64,000 nucleotides of DNA, taken from assembly GCF_003390325.1 (NCBI RefSeq), contig NZ_QUOK01000009.1, positions 1 through 64,000 on the forward strand. Reading direction: 5' to 3'. Each line of letters opens with the position of its first letter. The stretch's first letter is position 1. The notes beneath the pieces are model-generated. The model saw nothing but the letters and a program-made list of their open reading frames with translations, was not told the origin of the DNA and ran no database searches. Positions 1,872-62,397 of this stretch are shown here, one piece after another. A program made the position numbers and the translations under genes. Source of the stretch: Rhodohalobacter sp. SW132 (lineage in GTDB: Bacteria > Bacteroidota > Rhodothermia > Balneolales > Balneolaceae).

Positions 1872-3098
1872 TCACTCCGGAAATGATATTTTTCCGAAGT
1901 TAATTTTCTTCACGCCCGACTCTGTTTCCATCGGAAAACCCTCTCCGGCCAGCATTTCGTTTGCCAGAACAGCGAAAATCAGTCCCTCTTTTGCATCGGG
2001 ATCAAAGCCCAGCTTTGAAAAGTTTTGCAGATCGGCATCGGGCAGTAACTCGCTCAGCCGTTTTATCAGAACGGGGTTATGCGCACCACCGCCACTCACA
2101 TAAATACTGCTTTTTTGTGATGCAGCCGGATGCCGGGATAAGTTCTGAGTGATTGTAACCGCCGATAGTTCTGTAACGGTTGCCACCAGATCCTCCGGTG
2201 AGACCGATTGTAAATCAAGCCCTTCAGTTTTCAGTTGCCGTTCGATCCAGCCGAGGTTAAAATATTCAGGCCCTGTGGATTTGGATCCTTTTTCCTTGAA
2301 CCAAAGGTCGTTCAGCATCGCCCTTAGCAGATCATACCTGACAGAACCGGAAGCTGCTATCAATCCATCTTTATCAAACGGCTGATCGAAAAATTTCTGT
2401 ACGGTGTTGTCAATCAGGGTGTTACCCGGTCCTGTATCAGTGGTAAATCCTTTCTGATCCCTGCTGCTTTTCGCCGGAAGCAGTGTATAGTTCGCTATTC
2501 CGCCGATATTCAGCAGAACCCGGTCCTCCTTTTCATTTCCAAACAAAATCCGATCGACCAGCGCCGCCATCGGGGCACCTTCTCCGCCGTGTGCAATATG
2601 TTTTTGCCGGAAATCGCTGATGGTTAAAATACCCGTTTGTGCGGCGATCTGATCCCCATCCCCGATCTGCAGCGTGCTGTTAATCTGCTTTTCGCCATCA
2701 GTCTGCTTTTCGCCATCAGATTGTGCGCTTGCAGGATCGTGAAAAACCGTCTGTCCGTGACTTGCAATACAGTCCACATCACCGGGTTCCAAACCCCACT
2801 CTTTCAGAGCCGACCGAATCATTCCGGCATGAAGAATGCCGACCTGAGTGTGAAGATGGCAAAGCTCTTTTAGCGCCACTGCTTCCACCGAACTGACCGC
2901 CTTCAGCTTCAATTTCTGCGCCGGCGTGTATCCCACCGTCATAAAATGGGTGACGTTCGCTTCCGTATGATCCCCCGAACCGCTGATGGTGCAAAGCGCA
3001 ATATCCAGCCCGTCAAGGGAGGTGCCGCTCATCAGGCCGATGATTTTACGTGATTTTTTCTCTGATACTTTCTGAAGCTGAATCAATGATTGGTTCAT
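1872..3098 (-). CDS. anmK: anhydro-N-acetylmuramic acid kinase AnmK
   Basis: AnmK phosphorylates and opens 1,6-anhydro-N-acetylmuramic acid to give MurNAc 6-phosphate, for recycling of peptidoglycan in the cytoplasm. The 408-residue product has the family start IIGLMSGTSLDGLDIAL, the conserved LQIGDGDQIAAQTGI and GGEGAPMAALVD blocks, LNIGGIANYT and DTGPGNTLID. The start at 3098 (MNQSLIQLQ) is preferred over an in-frame codon 39 codons upstream because that extension is hydrophobic, unlike the family, and overlaps the divergent gene at 3165. An exact 18-bp tandem duplication adds a repeated DGEKQ(T/I) near residues 130-145. Confidence 0.93.
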   Translation of the reverse strand: MNQSLIQLQKVSEKKSRKIIGLMSGTSLDGLDIALCTISGSGDHTEANVTHFMTVGYTPAQKLKLKAVSSVEAVALKELCHLHTQVGILHAGMIRSALKEWGLEPGDVDCIASHGQTVFHDPASAQSDGEKQTDGEKQINSTLQIGDGDQIAAQTGILTISDFRQKHIAHGGEGAPMAALVDRILFGNEKEDRVLLNIGGIANYTLLPAKSSRDQKGFTTDTGPGNTLIDNTVQKFFDQPFDKDGLIAASGSVRYDLLRAMLNDLWFKEKGSKSTGPEYFNLGWIERQLKTEGLDLQSVSPEDLVATVTELSAVTITQNLSRHPAASQKSSIYVSGGGAHNPVLIKRLSELLPDADLQNFSKLGFDPDAKEGLIFAVLANEMLAGEGFPMETESGVKKINFGKISFPE

Positions 3099-3164
3099 GA
3101 TAATGGAATCGATATTTTTATATCTTTCAAAAATCGCAACAACATAATTTAAAGAAGGAAATTG

Positions 3165-3416
3165 ATGGCTGATGAATCGGAACAGGAATATCAGGCATGG
3201 CAGGAAGATATCCAATACCTGGTAGATGTATTAAAAGAGAGTTTTGAATCCACAGACGCCTCTTATTACCAGGATGATTTAAATAACATTCTCTATGTAG
3301 AGCTGGAGGGGCTTGACGATTACTCTGATGAAGAAATTACGGAGATCGCCAAGCCGATCCTGGAAGAACTGGATCTCGATTTTGAGGATATTTTTCTGCT
3401 TCCAAAGAACGTTTGA
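3165..3416 (+). CDS. small acidic protein, unknown function
   Basis: An 83-residue, strongly acidic, helical product (MADESEQEYQAWQED ... DFEDIFLLPKNV). It has no signal peptide, membrane segment or motif that I recognise. The ATG at 3165 has a good ribosome binding site (AAGAAGGAA) about 6 bases upstream. A TTG directly before it is in frame but less likely. It is divergent from anmK, with only 66 bp between the two starts, so the promoters share that spacer. The threonine synthase gene follows in the same direction after 123 bp. Coding character is supported by the ribosome binding site and the coherent acidic composition; function is unknown. Confidence 0.7.
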   Translation: MADESEQEYQAWQEDIQYLVDVLKESFESTDASYYQDDLNNILYVELEGLDDYSDEEITEIAKPILEELDLDFEDIFLLPKNV

Positions 3417-3539: not shown

Positions 3540-5243
3540 ATGTCAGAAATTCATACCGGGTATAAAATGACCTGCATCATGTGCGGTGCAGAAAACAGTG
3601 AAAAGGAAACATCCACCTATTGTACTTCATGCGGTGGTGTGCTGCAGATTGAATATGATCAGGTCAGGAAAGAAATTCAGTATCCGCTTGCTTCCATGGC
3701 GGAAGATCCCCTGAAAAATCATCCCTCTGCCCTGCGGCGGCTGAATCGACTTTCTGATGAGTACGCCGCTGAACTCTACGCTAAACTTGAATTTGAGCAT
3801 CCTACCGGCTGTTTCAAAGATCGCGGGAGCTATATTGAAGTTCAAAAAGCGCTGGAGCTGGGAGCAGATGCTATCTGCCTCGCCTCCACCGGGAACATGG
3901 CGGCATCGGTAGCGGCCTATGCCTGTTACTTTAAGATACCCTGTTATGTGTTTGTACCGGAGCGGACATCCGAAGCAAAACTTGCCCAGGCAACCATTTA
4001 CGATGCTACCATCATCCGGATCCAGGGTGATTTCACCAAATGCGAAGCACTCTGCCGTGAGTTTGCAAAATCGGGCAATTACTATCTTGCAGGTGACTAT
4101 GTATTCAGGGAAGAGGGGCAAAAATCGTTTTCGTATGAACTGGTTGATCAGCAAAATGAGCCGTTCGACTATATTTTTATCCCGGTGGGATGCGGCACCA
4201 ATTTCGGCGCGATTTATAAAGGATTTAAAGAGATGAAAGAGGCCGGCCTCATCGATTCCATTCCGCATCTGGTGGCGGTTCAGCCGGAAAGCAGCTCGCC
4301 GGTAGTACAGGGAATTTTCAAGAGAGAGAAGGTGATTGACACCCAATCGAGCACCATGGCTTCGTCCGTGGCTGCATCCAACCCGATCGACTTTTACAAA
4401 GTGCTCCGCGGAATTGATGATACAAATGGAGAAGCCCTTACCGTAACAGAAGATGAAATTCTTGAATCTCTGCGGGAGATGGCTACCAAAGAAGGGCATT
4501 TTACAGAACCGGCTTGTGCCCTGCCGCTGGCATCCTTTAAAAACCATCCCGATCTGTTCAAAGGCAAACGATGCCTGTTTGTACTGACGGGATCCGGGCT
4601 GAAAGACACAAAAGTGGTTGCCACACACTCTCTCACTGCACCCGTTTTAAAACCCGATCTGGATCACATTCACACCTACATCAACTCCGGGTTTGTGGAG
4701 ATACAGAAAAAAACGTTCGGTAAATCGAGGGATACCGCGCTTGCAAACCTGAAGATGGGCGAAAATCATGAACGGATGTACAAAGAGCATGTGGAGCGGA
4801 TGAACAAGCGAGGTAAAACGCTCCGGAAAAATGAACTTGAGTACCTTCAGACGATGGTTCTGAACGAAGAAACCGGCCTGGAATTTCCTGCCGAAGTGCT
4901 GGACTATAAAGTAACCATGCGGAAAGAAGAACTGGTTGAGGCGGGAGTAAAACTGCTGATCGGCGGAAAAGAGATCATTTCAAAAGGAAAAGGTGTCGGT
5001 CCGATTGACGCTGTGCTGAACGCGATAAAATCAGAAACCGACAACCAGATTCCGCTGGAAGTCATAAACCATGAAGTTGAAATCCTGAGTCCGGATACCG
5101 ACTCCCTGGTGATCGTAACTCTCACCCTTGGAAAAGACGGACAGCAGTGGAGAACCAACGGAGCATCCGCCGATACCATCGAAGCTGTGATTAAAGCATA
5201 TGAAAAAGGACTGGCGATCGCACAAAAAGCAATACTTGCCTGA
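3540..5243 (+). CDS. threonine synthase-like PLP enzyme fused to a LeuA-type allosteric domain
   Basis: Threonine synthase converts O-phosphohomoserine to threonine with PLP. Residues 12-31 form a zinc ribbon (CIMC ... CTSC). The PLP fold runs to about residue 370, with the Schiff-base lysine at 93 in PTGCFKDRGS and the STGNMAASVAAYA motif. A helical linker follows. Residues 447-567 match the regulatory domain of 2-isopropylmalate and citramalate synthases: EVLDYKVTMRKEEL, IGGKEIISKGKGVGPIDA, a second half LEVINHEVEILSPDTDSLV, then WRTNGASADTIEAVIKAYEKGL. In that family the domain binds leucine or isoleucine as feedback inhibitor. Fusion to threonine synthase suggests branched-chain amino-acid control at the threonine step. 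Other PALP activities such as cysteate synthase cannot be ruled out. Confidence 0.85.
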   Translation: MSEIHTGYKMTCIMCGAENSEKETSTYCTSCGGVLQIEYDQVRKEIQYPLASMAEDPLKNHPSALRRLNRLSDEYAAELYAKLEFEHPTGCFKDRGSYIEVQKALELGADAICLASTGNMAASVAAYACYFKIPCYVFVPERTSEAKLAQATIYDATIIRIQGDFTKCEALCREFAKSGNYYLAGDYVFREEGQKSFSYELVDQQNEPFDYIFIPVGCGTNFGAIYKGFKEMKEAGLIDSIPHLVAVQPESSSPVVQGIFKREKVIDTQSSTMASSVAASNPIDFYKVLRGIDDTNGEALTVTEDEILESLREMATKEGHFTEPACALPLASFKNHPDLFKGKRCLFVLTGSGLKDTKVVATHSLTAPVLKPDLDHIHTYINSGFVEIQKKTFGKSRDTALANLKMGENHERMYKEHVERMNKRGKTLRKNELEYLQTMVLNEETGLEFPAEVLDYKVTMRKEELVEAGVKLLIGGKEIISKGKGVGPIDAVLNAIKSETDNQIPLEVINHEVEILSPDTDSLVIVTLTLGKDGQQWRTNGASADTIEAVIKAYEKGLAIAQKAILA

Positions 5244-5297: not shown

Positions 5298-5735
5298 ATG
5301 AGTCGATCCCCTAAAATAAATACGGTAAACGAGGCGGCCACTAAATATCAGGCCGCTCCAAACGAAGAATATCAGCTCGTAGAACAGGCGCATCGCGGAG
5401 TACCTGCCGGGGCTTTTTTTGATATTCTCGGGTTCTCCGGCCTCACCAAGGAGGAGCTCTCCGGTTTGCTCGATGTCTCTTTCAAAACCATTCAGCGCTA
5501 TCAAAACGATGGAAAAAAACTAAACGCGCTAAACAGCGAGCAGCTTCTCAAAATGATCACTCTCTATCAAAAAGCAGAAGATGTATTTGGCGATCTTGTA
5601 TCATTCAATCGCTGGCTGCGCAAACCGGCTATTGGCCTCGGCAATCAACATCCTCTCAAATATATGCAAACACCGGGCGGTATCGATCTAATTATGGATG
5701 AGTTGCGTCGCATCGAGTTTGGGGCGCTGGCGTAG
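5298..5735 (+). CDS. Xre/MbcA/ParS-type antitoxin (DUF2384)
   Basis: A 145-residue antitoxin of the Xre-RES type II systems. The middle has a short Xre-like helix-turn-helix (LSGLLDVSFKTIQRYQNDGKKL). The C-terminal part has the DUF2384 toxin-binding pattern: ALNSEQLLKMITLYQKAEDVFGD, then FNRWLRKPAIGLGN and HPLKYMQTPGGIDLIMDELRRIEFG. It would repress its own promoter and block the NAD+ pocket of the RES toxin. The partner follows 108 bp downstream, an unusually wide gap; most pairs nearly overlap. The gap starts with a GGGTTCAGGGTTCAG repeat also found near 10870, so a repeat insertion may have opened it. Confidence 0.9.
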   Translation: MSRSPKINTVNEAATKYQAAPNEEYQLVEQAHRGVPAGAFFDILGFSGLTKEELSGLLDVSFKTIQRYQNDGKKLNALNSEQLLKMITLYQKAEDVFGDLVSFNRWLRKPAIGLGNQHPLKYMQTPGGIDLIMDELRRIEFGALA

Positions 5736-5843
5736 TGCAAGGTACAGGGTTCAGGGTTCAGAAAAACCTTATTTGTTGATTATAATCAGGCGAATTGCGC
5801 ATTGAATGAATCGAATCATATGATATCGATAAAGTAGTTTTTT

Positions 5844-6317
5844 ATGATCGTTTACCGAATCACAACGGCAAAATGGGCTGATAAGCTGACCGGATCGGGG
5901 TTTCCGGCCCGTTGGAATCCGCGTCATGTTCATGTGGTCTACACGGCCGGAAGCATTGCGCTTGCGTGCCTCGAAAACCTGGTGCACCGCTCCGGGGAAG
6001 GGTTGAACCTGAATTTTCGACTGACTGAAATTGAAATTCCTGAATCTGCATCAGTTACAAGTATTTCTGTGCAAGAACTGCCGGAAAAGTGGCATACAAT
6101 GAGCGGCTATCCGGCCTGTCAGCAGATTGGAAGAGATTGGGTGGATAATGGAAAAAGCTGCCTGCTGCGTGTTCCCTCTTCTATTATACCTGATGAGACG
6201 AATGTACTGATCAACCCAAATCATCCGGAATTTGAGAAGATCTTCATCAAGGAAATCCGGGAGTTTTCGTTTGATGAGAGGTTGATGAAAAGTGGTCACA
6301 TTAGCACTGCTCAGTAA
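5844..6317 (+). CDS. RES-domain toxin (NAD+-degrading)
   Basis: A 157-residue RES toxin, partner of the preceding antitoxin. It has the family start MIVYRITTAKWADKLTGSG, then the conserved Arg/Trp block PARWNPRHVHVVYTAGSIALACLENLVH, and late motifs WVDNGKSCLLRVPS and NVLINPNHPEF. The letters R, E and S that name the domain come from such conserved polar residues. Characterised relatives (MbcT, ParT) consume NAD+ by phosphorolysis or modify host enzymes; which applies here is unknown. The length matches the family and no frame damage is seen, so it is probably functional. Confidence 0.9.
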   Translation: MIVYRITTAKWADKLTGSGFPARWNPRHVHVVYTAGSIALACLENLVHRSGEGLNLNFRLTEIEIPESASVTSISVQELPEKWHTMSGYPACQQIGRDWVDNGKSCLLRVPSSIIPDETNVLINPNHPEFEKIFIKEIREFSFDERLMKSGHISTAQ

Positions 6318-14654: not shown

Positions 14655-15039
14655 GGAGTTAAAAGTGAGAAGGGAAAAGCTGGTGCGGAGCGACAGTCCC
14701 GAAACATCGGGGTGAAAAGTGAAAAAGCAGTGGCCAAATCATTGCCGACTGAAATTGTTTTCAATTTTTTTGAAAAGATTGATAAAATCGAAGAACACTT
14801 TGGTTCTAATCGGGAAAGTGAATATCAAATTTGAGCGATTATAAAAATCATCTACACTGCATTGACATGATATTGCATTTCACTTCTCATTTTTCACTTT
14901 TCACTATTCCCTTTTTACATTTCCCTTTTTACATTTCCCTTTTCACATCTCCCATCTGTTAAGCTATTCCGCTCTATAGTTCCTATATTTGGGCAAAAGA
15001 ATCATTCGATATTTAACCCAAAAAAAGTAGCTGTTTATT
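14655..15039. repeat. spacer with AAAAGTG / CTGGAGCGGAGCGACAG repeat
   Basis: Bases 14660-14727 carry the interspersed repeat GTGCGGAGCGACAGTCCCG with AACATCGGGGTGAAAAGTG, seen again at 32434-32511 and 55482-55580. Bases 14880-14950 are rich in CACTTTTC and CATTTCCCTTTTTA repeats in the opposite sense, so the two parts could pair. No gene is seen. A TATATTTG promoter-like motif lies at 14984. Confidence 0.6.
14984..14991 (+). promoter_or_regulatory. Bacteroidota-type -7 element upstream of pruA
   Basis: TATATTTG matches the TAnnTTTG -7 consensus of Bacteroidota sigma-70 promoters, 49 bp before the pruA start codon. A clean TTTG -33 element at the right distance is not obvious, so support is partial. 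Confidence 0.35.
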
Positions 15040-60875: not shown

Positions 60876-61114
60876 CGTATCGGGTTTTAGTTGTGGTATT
60901 ATTGAATTCCAATGGCAGAATCAGCCAATCTATATCTAAAGGGTATAAAAAATCTATCCATTCAGAGCGACTATTTGTATTTCACCGCAGTGGCGCAAAG
61001 TCGCGGGATGTGATTTTACAGCTTACATTTTTTAGTTTCCTGCGTGCTTCTCGCAGTCCTGATTTACCAGGGACTTTTCCTTGCTCATCGAAGCCTTGGC
61101 GCAGATGAGACTTC

Positions 61115-61149
61115 TCACTTTTCACTTTTCACTTTTCACTTTTCACTTT
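61115..61149. repeat. heptamer tandem repeat (CACTTTT)5 at the end of the epimerase gene
   Basis: Five direct copies of CACTTTT. The stop codon of the epimerase gene (61129) lies inside the array and the last residues (VRKVKSEK) are read from it. The 7-bp unit is not a multiple of three, so each gain or loss would change the reading frame at the C-terminus. Confidence 0.7.
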
Positions 61150-62397
61150 TCTCACTTCCACATCAACTGAATCCATATGAGCCGGCGTGAACCGTTCCAT
61201 TAAAACCAGGCAGGCTCTTGTGTTGTGATAGGGACATTTCCAGGGGCCGATTTTGTCTTCTTTTTCGTACGGAACTCCGTCTGCACTCACACGAAAGAAC
61301 CATTCTCCATTTTTTTTATCCCTGATATGATCCTGGATAAACTGCCAAAGCCCGGCAGCGGCATCCAGGTAATCGTCTTCACCCGTGAGCTCATGGATAT
61401 ACAAAAATCCGACTATAGCTTCAGCCTGCACCCACCAGTGAAAATCTCGATCTTTTTGTCTGCCTCCATTCCCGGTGTAGTACATGCCGCCATTCGATCG
61501 GTCCACTCCCTCATCGAGTGTGGCGCGGCCTATTTTCCAGGCTTCATCACGCGTTCGCTCAATGAGTTTATCATCCCCGAGGGTTTCAGCGGCATCAATT
61601 AACAACCAGGCTGCTTCGATATCGTGGCCGTAGGAATAGGTTTTGGATTTTGCTTTCCACCGGTCTGTAAAAAAGCCGATAAAGTGATGAATCTCCGGGT
61701 CGTATATGATCTCCAGCATGTGATTTACCAGGAGCTTTAACCTGCTTTCAAGCCCGCTGTCCGGCCAAACTCTGTAAAGGTTTGTATAGGCTTCCATGAT
61801 ATGGAGATGCGTATTCATGCTTCGTTTCTCATCCGCATCTCCATCGCCGAGACGTGCATCCTCCAGTTCATTCCACTGCCTGTCAAAAGCTTCCGTATAT
61901 CCGCCATTTTCAGGATCAAATCCGTGCTCTTCCAAAACCTCAAATGTTTCAACCGCACGTTTCAGCGCCAAATCCTTGTTGGATGCACGGAAATATTCAC
62001 TATAAGCATAGATAGCAAAAGCCTGGGCATAGGCGTGTTTTTTCGTGTCGACCGGCGTTCCTTTAAAGTCGACCGACCAGTAGAACCCGCGGAATTCAGA
62101 ATCATAAAAGTGATTTTCCAGGTAGTGAAACGACCGCGTTGCCAGCTCCAGGTAGTGCTCATCGTTCATCACCCTGTAGGCGGCAGAAAACGTCCATAAC
62201 AGCCGGGCGTTTAAAATGACCGCTTTATCCGCCTCTTTGTACAGATGGCCTGAATTATCCAATCGCCCGATAAAACCACCGAACTCCGGATCGACCGCAT
62301 TTTTAATCCAGAAGGGTAAAATTTCATTCTGAAGTTCGCTTGCCATTTCGGTGCGTAACTGCTCCACCTTGGTATGATTCGAAGAATTTGGTTTCAT
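61129..62397 (-). CDS. cellobiose/mannobiose 2-epimerase (AGE family)
   Basis: A 422-residue epimerase of the N-acylglucosamine 2-epimerase superfamily that turns mannobiose into mannosylglucose. The (alpha/alpha)6 barrel has ILPFWIKNAVDPEFGGFIGRLD, the active-site His in MNTHLHIMEAYTNL and in TYSYGHDIEAAWLL, and the pair in DFHWWVQAEAIVGFLY. These histidines match cellobiose 2-epimerases. It starts 4 bp after the GH130 stop, so epimerase and phosphorylase are made together, as in the mannan pathway of Bacteroides fragilis. A plain GlcNAc epimerase is less likely given the partner. Confidence 0.9.
   Translation of the reverse strand: MKPNSSNHTKVEQLRTEMASELQNEILPFWIKNAVDPEFGGFIGRLDNSGHLYKEADKAVILNARLLWTFSAAYRVMNDEHYLELATRSFHYLENHFYDSEFRGFYWSVDFKGTPVDTKKHAYAQAFAIYAYSEYFRASNKDLALKRAVETFEVLEEHGFDPENGGYTEAFDRQWNELEDARLGDGDADEKRSMNTHLHIMEAYTNLYRVWPDSGLESRLKLLVNHMLEIIYDPEIHHFIGFFTDRWKAKSKTYSYGHDIEAAWLLIDAAETLGDDKLIERTRDEAWKIGRATLDEGVDRSNGGMYYTGNGGRQKDRDFHWWVQAEAIVGFLYIHELTGEDDYLDAAAGLWQFIQDHIRDKKNGEWFFRVSADGVPYEKEDKIGPWKCPYHNTRACLVLMERFTPAHMDSVDVEVRKVKSEK

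Follow-up and report, generated by a model that had tools for sequence, protein, structure and literature searches.

Here, we describe a gene of Rhodohalobacter sp. SW132 that joins a fold-type II, threonine-synthase-like PLP domain to a regulatory domain of the kind found in LeuA. The gene is an intact ORF encoding 567 amino acids, and it lies in the 64,000-nucleotide stretch of contig NZ_QUOK01000009.1 analyzed here (the window; Table 1). The fusion is real and conserved and combines known domains in a new way, and our certainty about its architecture is high. As to function, we put at about one in two the probability that the product is a serine/threonine ammonia-lyase controlled by its LeuA domain and derived from a threonine-synthase-like ancestor. 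Certainty is moderate for the assignment of the reaction, which we read from a pattern of SdaA replacement, and low for the identity of the effector; both the effector and the sign of its effect are guesses. More tentatively, a branched-chain or other hydrophobic amino acid may switch serine breakdown by this allosteric enzyme, which may have replaced SdaA in most members of the family.

Architecture and conservation of the fusion

Pfam identifies two domains in the product, PALP (fold-type II PLP; E 1e-65) and LeuA_dimer (PF08502; E 3.4e-19, 69.5 bits against a cut-off of 24.9). With NCBIfam isopropylmalate-synthase models, the C-terminal match reaches back to residue 407, indicating that part of LeuA's linker is present as well. 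The HMGL-like catalytic domain of LeuA and citramalate synthase is missing from the fusion, and PALP is the catalytic domain. An AlphaFold model of residues 431-567 (11 sequences, pLDDT 84) folds into two beta-beta-beta-alpha units, and its 12 best PDB matches are all regulatory domains of LeuA (M. tuberculosis) or LiCMS (Foldseek E ~1e-7, probability 1.00, TM-score by query 0.66-0.73). The preliminary description of this DNA had proposed a C-terminal LeuA-type domain from the motifs GGKEIISKGKGVGPIDA, LEVINHEVEI and DTIEAVIKAYEKGL, and had suggested comparing a predicted structure with LeuA. These motifs are indeed present, and the profile and fold matches bear the proposal out. It also knew of no description of branched-chain control by such a domain on threonine synthase, and in the open-access literature we likewise found no description of a PLP enzyme with a LeuA-type regulatory domain.

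Table 1. Positions in the window of the fusion gene, its domains and key residues, and its upstream neighbors.
Feature	Position	Strand	Description	Basis
Fusion gene	3540..5243	+	Zinc ribbon, fold-type II PLP domain, LeuA-like linker and regulatory domain	Domain searches; 26-sequence ortholog alignment
Zinc ribbon	3573..3632	+	Residues 12-31; C12, C28 and C31 invariant, C15 replaced in some orthologs	Sequence; ortholog alignments
PALP catalytic domain	3723..4592	+	Residues 62-351	Pfam; Foldseek
Lys93	3816..3818	+	PLP Schiff-base lysine, invariant; aligns with K61 of T. thermophilus threonine synthase	Alignments
Asn loop STGNM	3885..3899	+	Residues 116-120; STGNT in threonine synthase; Met120 in all orthologs	Alignments
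AGDYVFREEGQ	4089..4121	+	Residues 184-194; replaces the threonine synthase loop NSVNPxRxEGQ	Alignments
Helical linker	4680..4877	+	Residues 381-446; second half matches LeuA's linker subdomain	NCBIfam isopropylmalate-synthase matches; model helices
LeuA_dimer regulatory domain	4878..5213	+	Residues 447-558; two beta-beta-beta-alpha units	Pfam; predicted structure; Foldseek
His511	5070..5072	+	At the pocket Tyr454 position of LiCMS (L. interrogans citramalate synthase); His in all orthologs	Alignment
Small acidic protein	3165..3416	+	83 aa, without a Pfam match; in most relatives it immediately precedes the fusion	
AnmK	1872..3215	-	Anhydro-N-acetylmuramate kinase; divergent neighbor marking the conserved slot	Gene neighborhood comparison

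At the N-terminus, a zinc ribbon (C12-x2-C15...C28-x2-C31) can be seen in the sequence, below the Pfam cut-off; in the orthologs that replace C15, the motif reads CxxxGH. The ribbon is real but ordinary. It had been presented earlier as a second unusual module, and while its presence stands, relatives without the fusion commonly carry the same ribbon. Another family of zinc-ribbon, threonine-synthase-like PLP enzymes, of about 400 aa and with a GGGTG loop, is represented by L093, L092 and their relatives; it occurs in genomes without thrB, and so may also be misnamed threonine synthase.

Full-length orthologs occur in more than 30 genomes at 55-86% identity, including that of the isolate Gracilimonas mengyeensis DSM 21985, and this recurrence rules out an assembly artefact. 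A survey of the fusion, which the preliminary description had suggested, confines it to the order Balneolales within a 296-genome sample of the phylum: 31 of the 42 Balneolales genomes have it, comprising 29 of 36 in the same family and single genomes in two other families, and it is absent from a third Balneolales family and all other classes of the sample. A scan of 84,980 species genomes, non-exhaustive in that it relies on exact short peptides, returned only Balneolales-type matches plus two Paenibacillus proteins that lack the domain. Between the SW132 gene and its ortholog L040, the catalytic part has a dN of 0.086 and the LeuA part one of 0.090 (for the latter, 0.09 against a dS of 1.75), with dS above 1.7 and near saturation in both; for the less diverged pair L036/L035, dN is 0.001 (catalytic) and 0.004 (LeuA) against dS of 0.31 and 0.23. 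Low dN relative to dS in both parts indicates that both halves are maintained by purifying selection. Selection has thus preserved the pairing across a single order of bacteria from marine and salt-lake habitats. At least two losses have occurred, one of them within a supported clade of fusion-bearing genomes; the lineages concerned are G092, which is nested together with G061, G042 and KhS (support 99/97), and genus g9, adjacent to the SW132 lineage.

The family of the small acidic protein is found in nearly all Balneolales genomes tested, mostly beside AnmK. It is kept in genomes without the fusion too, and we rejected it as an obligate fusion partner. The true start of AnmK is probably internal to the ORF given in Table 1. 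No Rfam match to a riboswitch or T-box upstream of the fusion was found in the window. Directly downstream (5298-6317) lies a pair encoding an Xre/MbcA/ParS-type antitoxin and a RES-domain toxin; in GSL.Bin13 (L040) the fusion is followed by an orthologous pair, and in T1Sed10 (L041) by the antitoxin at least. Elsewhere in the window, positions 482-1384 encode a 300-aa protein, neighborhood-conserved across the family and with no Pfam match at 0.01, and short tandem arrays whose units are related (TTTCACT-like and ACTTTTC heptamers, or a 14-base unit) lie at 14876-14953 and 61110-61151.

The active site and replacement by SdaA

Foldseek searches with a full-length model (pLDDT 79), used for fold matching and not for the relative placement of the two halves, match class-II threonine synthases first, followed by threonine deaminases and serine racemases. 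The score to TIGR00260, 173.1 bits, lies just above the cut-off of 167.1; across models, the fusion scores 148-185 bits for threonine synthase and 59-91 bits for IlvA, against IlvA cut-offs of 379-801. In a tree, a long branch leads to a single clade that holds the catalytic domains of the fusions and lies outside the solved threonine synthases.

The PLP residues are retained in the fusion orthologs, which keep K93, STGN and the C-terminal TG motif. Solved class-II threonine synthases share NSVNPxRxEGQ and a Thr after STGN (the Arabidopsis enzyme has NSLNSLR and STGDT), elements which we take to be contacts to the substrate phosphate. T88 and NSVNP of threonine synthase are replaced in 36/36 fusion orthologs, by Met120 and AGDYVFRxEGQ; within this loop, A184, G185, D186, V188, F189 and R190 are invariant in all 36.

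A clue to the reaction comes from the chromosomal slot that the gene occupies. In genomes of the SW132 type, the fusion is flanked by a lipoprotein gene on one side and by the small gene/AnmK pair on the other. G231 and G262 have SdaA (TIGR00720, 588 bits) in this slot, and in G171 SdaA adjoins the same type of lipoprotein-ABC block, which we counted as SdaA in the fusion slot. Genome G092, which has no fusion, carries a more distant SdaA of a separate lineage elsewhere. Within the family, SdaA is found in 0/29 fusion-bearing genomes versus 4/7 without the fusion (Fisher p 6e-4, a value that ignores shared ancestry and rests on only two or three independent replacements). Two genomes from neighboring families, G219 and G286, have both genes; three genomes (G108, G119 and G203) lack both. 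The swap, then, is a pattern, not a rule, and the genes are not strictly interchangeable. That SdaA takes the place of the fusion where the latter is lost suggests that both enzymes convert L-serine to pyruvate and ammonia. In favor of this reading, SW132 has just one further dehydratase-like PLP protein, whose best score is as a hydroxyaspartate dehydratase. Against it, a hydroxyaspartate/serine-dehydratase-like PLP enzyme is present in every family genome checked.

According to our proposal, a zinc-ribbon, threonine-synthase-like PLP enzyme would have lost its substrate-phosphate pocket and gained a linker and regulatory domain from a LeuA-type enzyme, to become an ammonia-lyase acting most likely on L-serine and possibly on L-threonine too. 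Class-II threonine synthases deaminate threonine as a side reaction (PMC12172450), and a change of main reaction would therefore be a short step.

Alternative reactions

In several genomes, lysC-dapB-dapA-dapD lie near the fusion, which the ammonia-lyase reading leaves unexplained. It is conceivable, if rather unlikely, that the enzyme acts on a different amino acid, for instance one from lysine/diaminopimelate, sulfonate (cysteate) or modified amino acid metabolism, with Asp186 binding a charged side chain. That Asp186 is invariant and sits in the old phosphate pocket is consistent with this idea, as are the nearby lysine genes and the presence among the Foldseek matches of CapA2, a PLP enzyme of Alistipes. 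However, CapA2 aligns at only 17% identity, and the neighborhood is shared with the fusion-less G092, so that it may reflect plain synteny. A role in methionine synthesis by O-acetylhomoserine chemistry was also considered and rejected, with MetY/MetB-type enzymes in 25/25 genomes leaving no gap.

We regard as improbable a threonine ammonia-lyase that feeds isoleucine synthesis, in other words an IlvA counterpart that senses isoleucine through a LeuA-type domain and not an ACT domain. Such a role would fit the resemblance of the predicted pocket to the isoleucine pocket of LiCMS (see below), and no IlvA of SW132 carries a regulatory domain at its C-terminus. Yet SW132 does have a citramalate synthase, which together with the lack of a regulated IlvA implies that isoleucine may not derive from threonine there. 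Moreover, IlvA-length enzymes (420-460 aa) coexist with the fusion in many genomes, and the fusion is kept in six genomes that lack ilvC (G081, G042, G151, G258, G159 and G069).

SW132 has a canonical thrA-thrB-thrC operon on contig C5, with a ThrC that reaches 300 bits against TIGR00260. In addition, three genomes (G081, G061 and G042) that retain homoserine dehydrogenase and lack thrB, canonical ThrC and TIGR02535 still have the fusion. Here the search for homoserine kinase covered the thrB and TIGR02535 families, and TIGR02535, as an alternative kinase, gave no match over its cut-off in 16 genomes. A homoserine kinase of another type is a loophole in this argument, and non-standard homoserine kinases do exist in other bacteria (PMC7311316). 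Neither a threonine-making nor an isoleucine-feeding role would be expected of a gene that persists without thrB/thrC or ilvC. The preliminary description had proposed a threonine synthase placing branched-chain feedback one step above threonine dehydratase; such a second threonine synthase would accord with the best sequence and fold matches and the narrow pass at TIGR00260, but the separate thrABC, the persistence of the fusion without thrB/thrC or ilvC, and an AGDYVFR loop that differs from the substrate loop of every solved class-II threonine synthase make this very improbable, and the fusion is probably not a threonine synthase acting at that step. We can say with good certainty that the main threonine synthase is another enzyme.

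The regulatory pocket and comparison with known systems

To return to the ammonia-lyase reading, the LiCMS domain solved with isoleucine (3f6g/3f6h) served as a reference for the pocket of the fusion. At what we take to be the ligand-pocket positions of LiCMS (430, 451, 454, 458, 464, 468 and 495), the aligned fusions retain Ile/Val (458), Val (468) and, for the most part, Thr (464), and they carry I/L/M (430), V/I/L (451) and, in place of Gln495, Thr or Val; the pocket is thus mostly kept. A hydrophobic amino acid is our best guess for the predicted ligand. The invariant His511 in place of the pocket Tyr suggests that this may be neither leucine nor isoleucine. In its GVGPxDA motif, the fusion resembles the full-length LeuA of G286 more than it does CimA. 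SW132's own LeuA (397 aa; L076:10368-11558, contig C5) lacks the regulatory domain and was rejected as its source, and no LeuA with the domain was found in sampled genomes of the same family. The citramalate synthase adjacent to this LeuA has the domain.

In the proposed mechanism, the C-terminal domain would dimerize and bind a hydrophobic amino acid, of the isoleucine/leucine class, in the cleft between its beta-beta-beta-alpha units. The ligand would move the linker and thereby switch the PLP active site, such that an amino-acid pool would set the rate at which serine is converted to pyruvate and ammonia. In E. coli, leucine induces serine deaminase via Lrp; this precedent makes a link between an amino acid and serine deamination plausible, by analogy only.

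If this proposal is correct, the LeuA regulatory domain would be a portable sensor that can serve an unrelated catalytic fold, much as ACT and CBS domains can, and would constitute a new regulatory module for PLP enzymes. It would also account for the replacement of an oxygen-sensitive Fe-S serine deaminase in one bacterial order, and would mean that "threonine synthase" labels on zinc-ribbon PLP enzymes can be wrong. For engineered feedback control, the LeuA-type domain would be a ready part.

Class-II ThrC (6cgq, 2zsj, 2d1f, 1uim) shares the fusion's fold, PLP lysine, STGN loop and TG motif, at about 30-35% identity over the catalytic domain; unlike in ThrC, the NSVNPxR loop and T88 are replaced in the fusion, a LeuA domain is added, and thrC lies elsewhere in the genome. 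The regulatory domains of LeuA and citramalate synthase (1sr9, 3fig, 3f6g, 3f6h) share with the fusion the two beta-beta-beta-alpha units, GVGPxDA, the linker and most hydrophobic pocket positions, the pocket Tyr being His in the fusion; they sit on an HMGL-like TIM barrel, whereas that of the fusion sits on a PLP enzyme. IlvA (1tdj) is likewise a fold-type II PLP enzyme with a C-terminal regulatory domain of amino-acid-binding type, but its domain is ACT-like and unrelated to PF08502, and its catalytic domain is distant. SdaA, an Fe-S L-serine ammonia-lyase (TIGR00720), occupies the chromosomal slot of the fusion where the latter is absent and is proposed to catalyze the same reaction, with an unrelated fold and cofactor (Fe-S, no PLP). 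Finally, the bifunctional ThrC of cyanobacteria (PMC12172450) is similarly a threonine-synthase-like lineage apart from canonical ThrC, and it deaminates threonine; unlike the enzyme proposed here, it has no reported LeuA domain and still makes threonine.
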